Shown: positions 51,945 to 54,272 of the stretch, one piece after another
Layout: each line of letters starts with the position of its first letter
Numbering within the stretch: the first letter of the stretch is position 1
From: Parasphingopyxis sp. CP4
Lineage (GTDB): Bacteria; Pseudomonadota; Alphaproteobacteria; Sphingomonadales; Sphingomonadaceae
NCBI RefSeq assembly: GCF_013378055.1
Contig: NZ_CP051130.1
Coordinates: 496,001-560,000, forward strand
Direction: 5' to 3'
DNA length: 64,000 nucleotides
Position numbers and translations under genes: made by a program
Notes under the pieces: generated by a model
Seen by the model: the letters and a program-made list of their open reading frames with translations, nothing else
Database searches by the model: none
Told to the model about the DNA's origin: nothing

Positions 51945-52880
51945 ATGCGCGCTTTTATCTTTCCAGGGCAGGGCAGCCAGGCCGTCGGCATGGGTGCTGC
52001 ACTTGCCGATGCGAGTCCGGTCGCACGCGAAGTTTTCGAAGAAATTGACGATGCGCTCGGCCAGAATCTCAGCGGGTTGATGCGCGAAGGACCGGAAGAC
52101 GAGCTGACGCTTACCGAAAATGCGCAGCCGGCAATCATGGCCAATGCCATCGCGACGTTGCGGGTGCTGGAAAAAGAAGGCGGCATCACGCTCGCTGACA
52201 AGGCGGACTTTGTCGCGGGTCACAGCCTGGGCGAATATACCGCTCTATGCGCAGCTGGCGGTTTTGATCTTGCAACCACGGCACGGCTCCTCAAGCGGCG
52301 CGGACAGGCGATGCAGGCGGCCGTTCCGGTGGGTGAGGGGGCGATGGCCGTGTTCCTTGGCCTCGATTTCGATCCGGCGACCGAGATTTGCGAAGAGGCG
52401 GCTGAAGGCGAAGTCTGCGTCGTGGCGAATGATAATGCACCGGGCCAGATTGTGATCTCCGGTCACACAGGTGCGGTCGACCGCGCTTGCGCGCTCGGTA
52501 AGGAGCGCGGTGCACGGCGCGCCATGCCGCTCGCAGTTTCCGCGCCGTTTCATTGCCCGCTCATGACGCCTGCGGCGGATGCAATGGAAGAGGCGCTGGC
52601 TGGCGTTGAGATCCATCCGCTGTCTGCGATGCTCTATGCCAATGTCACTGCGATGCCGGTCGGCGAACATGAAGCGATCCGCGGATTGCTCGTCGAACAG
52701 GTTACGGCGATGGTCCGCTGGCGCGAGAGCATTGCCGAGATGGCGAGCGAAGGCGTGTCGGAGTTTATTGAATTTGGCGGAAAGGTTGTCGCGCCGATGG
52801 TCAAACGGATCGCGCAGGACGCGGCTCAAAAGAGCATCGTGAAGATGGATGACATCGAGGCTGTGCTGGCGACTCTATGA
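51945..52880 (+). CDS. fabD: malonyl CoA-ACP transacylase
   Basis: A 311-residue FabD with [12 protein letters not shown], the nucleophile motif GHSLGEY (Ser94), the malonate-binding arginine region, and SAPFHCPLM with the catalytic His. It moves malonyl from CoA to ACP. It starts the cluster fabD-orf-fabG-acpP-fabF-mltG. Its stop overlaps an unexpected small gene in ATGA (52877-52880), where fabG would normally follow. Confidence 0.97.
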
Positions 52881-53158
52881 TCTGGAATTTGGATAATATC
52901 GGTGAGTATGCGTTGCCAGATGGGCGGCGCTTGGTGCTGAAAGACTACCATTCAACGCCGCGGGATGAGAGCAATCTTCATTGCTACGACGCAAACGGAT
53001 CACTTCTTTGGCAATCACCAGCTCAACCGTCGGAGGACGAGCATTATGTCGCCATTCACGGTAAAAGTGGCCGACTATATGGCAATACATGGGATTGCTA
53101 TCTGAAAGAAATTTCCCTTGACGATGGCTCAATTCTGTCCTCGGTTTTCACTAAATAG
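52877..53158 (+). CDS. small hypothetical protein inserted in the fab operon
   Basis: A 93-residue protein of unknown function. It reads like one beta-propeller/PQQ-type blade pair: [16 protein letters not shown], then [23 protein letters not shown] and [13 protein letters not shown]. No signal peptide. It starts inside the fabD stop and ends eight bases before fabG, whose AGGA binding site touches its stop, so it is fully integrated in the operon. By eye its GC (near 50%) is lower than that of fabD and fabG (about 60%), which suggests a later arrival. Similar lone propeller-like proteins occur scattered in Proteobacteria. Confidence 0.75.
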
Positions 53159-53166
53159 GAATAAGC

Positions 53167-53904
53167 ATGTTCGATCTTTCAGGAAAAACCGCGCTGGTCA
53201 CTGGCGCATCGGGTGGCATCGGATCCGCGATTGCCAAGGCATTGGCTGACCAGGGAGCCAAAGTTGCGCTTTCTGGAACCCGGGAAGAGGCGCTTCAGGC
53301 GGTTGCAGCCGATATTGGCGGCGATCCGGTGGTCCTCCCGTGCAATCTCTCCGATGGCGAGGCCGTGGATGCTCTGATCCCGGCGGCCGTCGAAGCGCTC
53401 GGAAAGCTCGATATTCTCGTCAACAATGCCGGTGTTACGCGCGATAATCTCGCGATGCGGATGAAAGATGAGGAATGGGATCAGGTTATCCGGGTCAATC
53501 TGGAAGCGGCATTTCGGCTCGCCCGCGCATCAATGCGACCAATGATGAAGGCACGTGGTGGTCGAATTATCTCGATAACGTCGGTAGTTGGCGCCACGGG
53601 TAACCCCGGACAGGCCAATTATGCGGCTTCGAAAGCCGGTCTTGTCGGAATGTCCAAGGCATTGGCCCAGGAAGTTGCGAGCCGCGGTATTACTGTAAAT
53701 TGCGTGGCGCCCGGATTTATTCGCTCGGCAATGACCGATGAGCTGCCCGACGCGCAAAAAGAGGCGCTAATGACCCGGATTCCCGCCGGAAAACTTGGTG
53801 AAGGCGCAGATATCGCCGCTGCCGTCACATATCTCGCATCGGATGAAGCCGCCTATATTACGGGCGAAACCTTGCATGTGAACGGTGGAATGGCGATGTT
53901 ATAG
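53167..53904 (+). CDS. fabG: 3-oxoacyl-ACP reductase
   Basis: A 245-residue short-chain dehydrogenase with TGASGGIGSAIAKAL, the NNAGVTRDNLAMRM segment special to FabG, ISITSVVGATGNPGQANYAASKAG (catalytic Ser, Tyr and Lys) and ITVNCVAPGFI. NADPH reduces the 3-oxoacyl-ACP in each round of fatty-acid synthesis. It lies between the inserted gene and acpP, with ACP 81 bases after. Confidence 0.97.
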   Translation: MFDLSGKTALVTGASGGIGSAIAKALADQGAKVALSGTREEALQAVAADIGGDPVVLPCNLSDGEAVDALIPAAVEALGKLDILVNNAGVTRDNLAMRMKDEEWDQVIRVNLEAAFRLARASMRPMMKARGGRIISITSVVGATGNPGQANYAASKAGLVGMSKALAQEVASRGITVNCVAPGFIRSAMTDELPDAQKEALMTRIPAGKLGEGADIAAAVTYLASDEAAYITGETLHVNGGMAML

Positions 53905-53985: not shown

Positions 53986-54222
53986 ATGAGCGATACTGCC
54001 GATCGGGTGAAAAAGATCGTCACCGAGCATCTTGGGGTCGAAGCCGACAAGGTCACCGAAGATGCAGCCTTTATCGATGATCTGGGCGCTGACAGCCTCG
54101 ATATCGTCGAGCTGGTAATGGCATTCGAAGAAGAGTTTGGCGTCGAAATTCCCGACGATGCTGCCGAAGACATTGCGACCGTTAAGGACGCAATTGCATA
54201 TATCGACAAGCAGAACGCCTGA
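53986..54222 (+). CDS. acpP: acyl carrier protein
   Basis: A 78-residue [22 protein letters not shown], then [19 protein letters not shown] with the phosphopantetheine serine at residue 37 (DSLD). It carries the growing acyl chain. AGCAAAGGATATTCC precedes the ATG; the longer open frame upstream is out of family. A strong hairpin follows before fabF and would make acpP mRNA more abundant than the downstream messages, as needed for this highly used protein. Confidence 0.98.
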
Positions 54223-54272
54223 TCGCTGCATGCGATAAGGGAGCCCGGTCGTACGACCGAGCCAAATGGATT

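Follow-up and report, generated by a model that had tools for sequence, protein, structure and literature searches.

In the 64,000-nucleotide stretch of DNA analyzed here (hereafter the window), from the marine bacterium Parasphingopyxis sp. CP4, a 93-codon open reading frame (ORF) lies at 52877–53158 (+), between the gene for malonyl-CoA:ACP transacylase, fabD (51945–52880, +; 311 aa; PF00698, 117.5 bits), and the gene for 3-oxoacyl-ACP reductase, fabG (53167–53904, +; 245 aa; PF13561, 218 bits). The stop codon of fabD overlaps the start of the small gene in the motif ATGA, and a spacer of 8 nt (GAATAAGC; 53159–53166, +), as read from the sequence, separates it from fabG; the coordinates, the overlap and the gap of the original prediction are all exact. 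The TAG stop codon of the ORF and the spacer together form TAGGAA, which is likely the ribosome site for fabG, and the equivalent spacer in Parasphingopyxis lamellibrachiae is TAGGAATATTG. Next in the cluster is a gene that reads as acpP, for acyl carrier protein (53987–54223, +). Inside the insert we detected neither a terminator-like site nor a promoter-like site on the + strand, an Rfam search returned no match, and there is no second copy of the ORF in the host genome.

The ORF had been described as GC-poorer than its neighbors, and its composition does differ from theirs: its GC content is 47.7% and its GC3 49.5%, against 61.5% and 66.9% for fabD and 57.4% and 56.7% for fabG. It is also GC-poor for the genome (2.96 Mb, ~59% GC), with a z-score of −3.4; among 1150 coding segments of equal length taken from long genes of the host, a GC content as low occurs in only 0.09% and a GC3 as low in 1.4% (genome composition here being that of 20 sampled stretches and the 64-kb window). 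The check on codon usage that had been suggested alongside GC gave less, since the codons chosen for these amino acids are nothing unusual (15% of segments score as low), so the low GC of the ORF also reflects the amino-acid make-up of its product. A long residence in the genome would allow for partial amelioration.

Distribution and divergence of the inserted gene

The gene is present in two of the 10 Parasphingopyxis genomes, the host and P. lamellibrachiae DSM 26725. The P. lamellibrachiae copy occupies the same site, overlaps fabD through GTGA and encodes a protein of equal length with 73% identity and no indels. Far from being universal at this site in the order, the gene was matched in 2 of 398 genomes there by a two-sequence profile; wider profiles matched three other genomes out of 387 in the class at an E-value of 0.01 or better (two weak, and one match split over two frames) and four others out of 397 in the phylum. 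Because of this narrow distribution in the genus and the order, and because the GC content is low relative to the genome, we conclude that the gene was acquired, which supports the earlier view of a foreign gene inserted within an essential operon.

The two copies differ by 42 synonymous and 32 nonsynonymous changes (over 63 and 216 sites, respectively), which corresponds to a dN/dS of ~0.10, where fabD and fabG both give 0.05. Synonymous change is near saturation, with a pS of 0.67 and a dS of ~1.6, compared with a dS of 1.4 for fabD and 0.8 for fabG. Since the copies differ mostly at synonymous sites, the insertion is old and has been retained as a protein; the gene is not recent and has diverged along with the neighboring genes, and the pattern fits descent of both copies from a common ancestor under purifying selection. 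In a tree built from fabD and fabG, the host and P. lamellibrachiae form a weakly supported cluster (52 and 75) with a third member of the genus (G008), and the junction of that third genome is 94 nt long and lacks the gene. Given this grouping, the simplest history is one gain and one loss, or a replacement.

A passenger without selected function, or a chance ORF within inserted DNA, would sit well with the non-coding repeats that are tolerated at this site in many relatives, but the equal length, the lack of indels and the low dN/dS at nearly saturated synonymous divergence, together with the confident predicted fold and the homologous proteins across phyla described below, make this strongly disfavored and, in our judgment, highly improbable. 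The ORF is more than a chance ORF, and its acquisition, its persistence and the predicted fold class of its product are well supported.

The fabD–fabG junction as an insertion site

Junctions were read from the fabD loci of the genus and the family, excluding a few genomes in which fabG did not fall inside the fetched stretch, and 105 were readable. The expectation that fabD and fabG normally adjoin directly fails in this family, where half of these junctions exceed 60 nt, although the sample was ordered by similarity to the fabD of the window, so that the proportions given here are not unbiased estimates. In 52 junctions the two genes lie 60 nt or less apart, with some overlapping, and another 21 hold 61–350 nt of non-coding DNA, many with palindromic repeats. 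The remainder include 17 with a GxxExxY gene (PF13366, PDDEXK_3), four with a gene for a protein of ~190 aa (185–208 aa) that begins with a signal-like stretch and matches nothing in Pfam (L125, L126, L137, L145), three with a class I methyltransferase (L077, L133, L143), three with a GNAT acetyltransferase (L128, L135, L144), two with an enoyl-CoA hydratase-like gene (L132, L136) and two with the 93-aa propeller-type gene, representatives of the junction genes having been compared with Pfam. In the last (G007, L068), a repeat-like insert replaces the final codons and the stop of fabD, and the fabD reading frame, out of phase with fabG, extends 34 nt beyond the fabG start. Genes of six unrelated kinds, the 93-aa gene included, thus occupy 31 of the 105 junctions, which marks the gap as a recurrent insertion spot; genomes that share one type of insert need not represent independent insertions.

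All 17 GxxExxY genes are in the orientation of the operon, and most of them are enclosed by inverted arrays such as ACGCGGAGACGCGGAG (L019, 2437–2902; L070, L036, L042, L045, L046, L049, L076, L080, L083, L091, L108, L110, L111, L112, L119 and L146). The gene with its inverted arrays looks like a mobile unit, and the related repeat-only inserts in L021 and L023 look like gene-less derivatives. These genes resemble the 93-aa gene in insertion site and orientation, but the proteins are unrelated and, whereas most of the GxxExxY genes lie between inverted repeats, the 93-aa insert has none: flanking terminal inverted repeats were looked for and rejected, the longest exact arm being 7 nt. Our literature search found no relevant paper on GxxExxY elements or on the fabD–fabG junction.

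Predicted fold and distant relatives

An AlphaFold2 model computed from four sequences is all-beta with nine strands (pLDDT 88.1, pTM 0.78). When this model was compared with the PDB using Foldseek, the best matches were nearly all propellers (2yms, BamB, PQQ dehydrogenases, YxaL and designed propellers), with E-values of 1e-3 to 1e-2, a probability of ~1.00 and TM-scores of 0.5–0.65, and a ten-member family profile matched PQQ-type repeat chains at an E-value of 1e-5. The likeness to part of a beta-propeller that had been noticed in the sequence was therefore upheld by fold comparison and profile search alike, and the protein is predicted to form about two blades of a PQQ-type propeller. As in PQQ-like repeat proteins (BamB, YxaL, PQQ dehydrogenases; PDB 3q54, 7eq5, 2yms), which the model matches at a TM-score of ~0.6, the predicted four-stranded antiparallel blades follow one another in consecutive repeats; unlike these proteins, in which 4–9 blades close a ring in one chain, the 93-aa chain would be unclosed alone, and it has no visible signal peptide and no Pfam match. 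A ring could possibly be closed by oligomers of the two-blade protein.

The protein has no match in Pfam, NCBIfam or PADLOC, including their immunity and defense families, and no convincing match in PHROGs. It is a member of a family, so far uncatalogued and sparse in its distribution, of proteins of ~75–126 aa that share a core resembling N-L/F-x-x-D-x-x-G-x-L-L-W ... C/G-Y/F ... D-x-x-x-G ... F-T-K. The distant members are ~25–35% identical to the 93-aa protein; the single window sequence finds them with modest E-values (6e-3 to 0.8), and their kinship rests on profile searches, the conserved core and pairwise matches. A scan across GTDB yielded no match for the single protein and three loci for a four-sequence alignment. 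A GNA-type lectin was considered and set aside, as phmmer gave weak matches only (best E-value 0.024) and the fold search gives no support. A phage origin was likewise rejected, as no relative was found in a phage or viral contig and the only match was a partial one at an E-value of 0.4.

The neighborhoods of these relatives vary. On a Leptospira interrogans plasmid, the relative shares 4 nt with the end of an RHS-core gene, and the position directly behind a toxin-type gene, which the window copy does not occupy, is the usual place of an immunity gene. On a Sulfurovum plasmid, the relative follows an Imm27 immunity gene by 18 nt. The Mesorhizobium huakuii relative is a lone ORF on a plasmid, some kilobases from ligD/Ku genes, that of Hansschlegelia stands alone near metH, and that of Pseudoalteromonas lies within a run of small ORFs; further relatives occur on a Rhizobium plasmid, in a Hyphomonas MAG, on a Natronococcus plasmid and in four more genomes. 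In two gammaproteobacteria (G1133, G1239), attC-like repeats flank the gene within arrays of small genes on the same strand, much as in integron gene cassettes, and each genome encodes an integron integrase on another contig (467.6 and 442.2 bits, against a curated cut-off of 265 bits). The window copy differs in that it has no attC-like site nearby, so that an integron cassette in situ was rejected, and neither the host nor P. lamellibrachiae has an integrase above this cut-off.

None of the distant relatives examined adjoins fab genes, and linkage to them is confined to two genomes of one genus. This bears on the possibility that the protein regulates fatty-acid synthesis or acts as its partner in this lineage alone, tuning the expression of FabD and FabG or binding ACP, FabD or FabG. 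The fabD overlap and the close spacing to fabG, both conserved in two species, would suit such a role, but eight of the 10 genus members do without the gene and unrelated genes fill the same site in relatives. We consider this explanation improbable, and the ACP or FabD partnership suggested at the outset is left without support.

A candidate orphan immunity protein

The scattered relatives suggest that the function is protective (immunity) and does not concern fatty-acid synthesis. Our leading explanation, which we hold tentatively, is that the 93-aa protein, a product of horizontal acquisition, is an orphan protein of the immunity type for which the fab operon provides expression. An accessory gene was acquired horizontally, landed in the short fabD–fabG gap of a Parasphingopyxis ancestor and has been retained as a working protein, the last step being suggested by the shared site and overlap in P. 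lamellibrachiae and by the low dN/dS. Translational coupling would lead to its production together with FabD and FabG, the fab operon would provide steady expression, and the protein may bind and block an incoming antibacterial toxin of competitors (polymorphic, RHS-type). Immunity is proposed because the Leptospira relative overlaps an RHS-core gene, the Sulfurovum relative lies close to Imm27 and other relatives sit in cassette arrays.

Immunity proteins usually evolve fast, and the dN/dS of the gene therefore counts against this explanation. Other points on the same side are that a single relative, that of Leptospira, lies directly behind a toxin-type gene; that the alphaproteobacterial relatives are lone genes; that no catalogued immunity family is matched; and that, in the host itself, a small gene does follow the RHS gene but is unrelated. 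Two published reports document orphan immunity genes directed against non-self effectors (PMC10539506, PMC10470768). The 93-aa gene is, like the orphan immunity genes for polymorphic-toxin and T6SS effectors, small, stand-alone and acquired, and the resemblance extends to its relatives, some of which neighbor RHS or Imm27 genes or occupy cassette arrays; it differs from them in having no known cognate toxin or matched immunity family, in its slow evolution between two species and in its place inside an essential operon.

The main rival, which we regard as a realistic possibility, is that the gene encodes a small cytosolic mini-propeller that binds a ligand or partner, perhaps as a homo-oligomer that closes the ring, and whose role, in housekeeping or stress, has nothing to do with toxins, with integrons and other mobile DNA as the vehicle of its spread. 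Such a role agrees with the many unrelated functions that integron cassettes encode, with the lone position of the alphaproteobacterial relatives, with the strong conservation of the protein and with its nearest fold matches, which are multi-blade propellers. Against it, one relative adjoins an RHS gene and another adjoins an Imm27 gene, and no ligand-binding motif was identified in the protein.

An essential operon would be expected to keep insertions out, and yet across one family a single gap in a fatty-acid operon has taken up several palindromic repeats as well as genes of at least six unrelated types; what leads to their being tolerated or favored there is now a testable question. The 93-aa gene also establishes a small family of proteins that neither Pfam nor NCBIfam contains and whose neighbors suggest a protective role in bacterial competition. 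It is conceivable, if somewhat doubtful, that the family is an unrecognized class of immunity proteins, built of two propeller blades and spread by integrons, and that the fabD–fabG gap of Sphingomonadaceae serves as a landing pad in which an essential operon offers dependable expression to acquired protective genes and selfish units.

RHS genes are present in both the host and P. lamellibrachiae, which makes toxin warfare plausible in the niche of the genus; no VipA (T6SS) was found in the genus. The host RHS-type gene (L181, 4804–8988; G000:C1, ~579.8–584.0 kb) lies ~31 kb downstream of the 93-aa gene and outside the window; the region around it contains integrase-like genes as well as small lipoprotein-like ORFs that are near-duplicates. 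In P. lamellibrachiae (L182; G002:C3, 1–14000), AT-rich small genes (38–42% GC) follow directly behind the RHS genes, an arrangement typical of exchangeable toxin tips and immunity genes.
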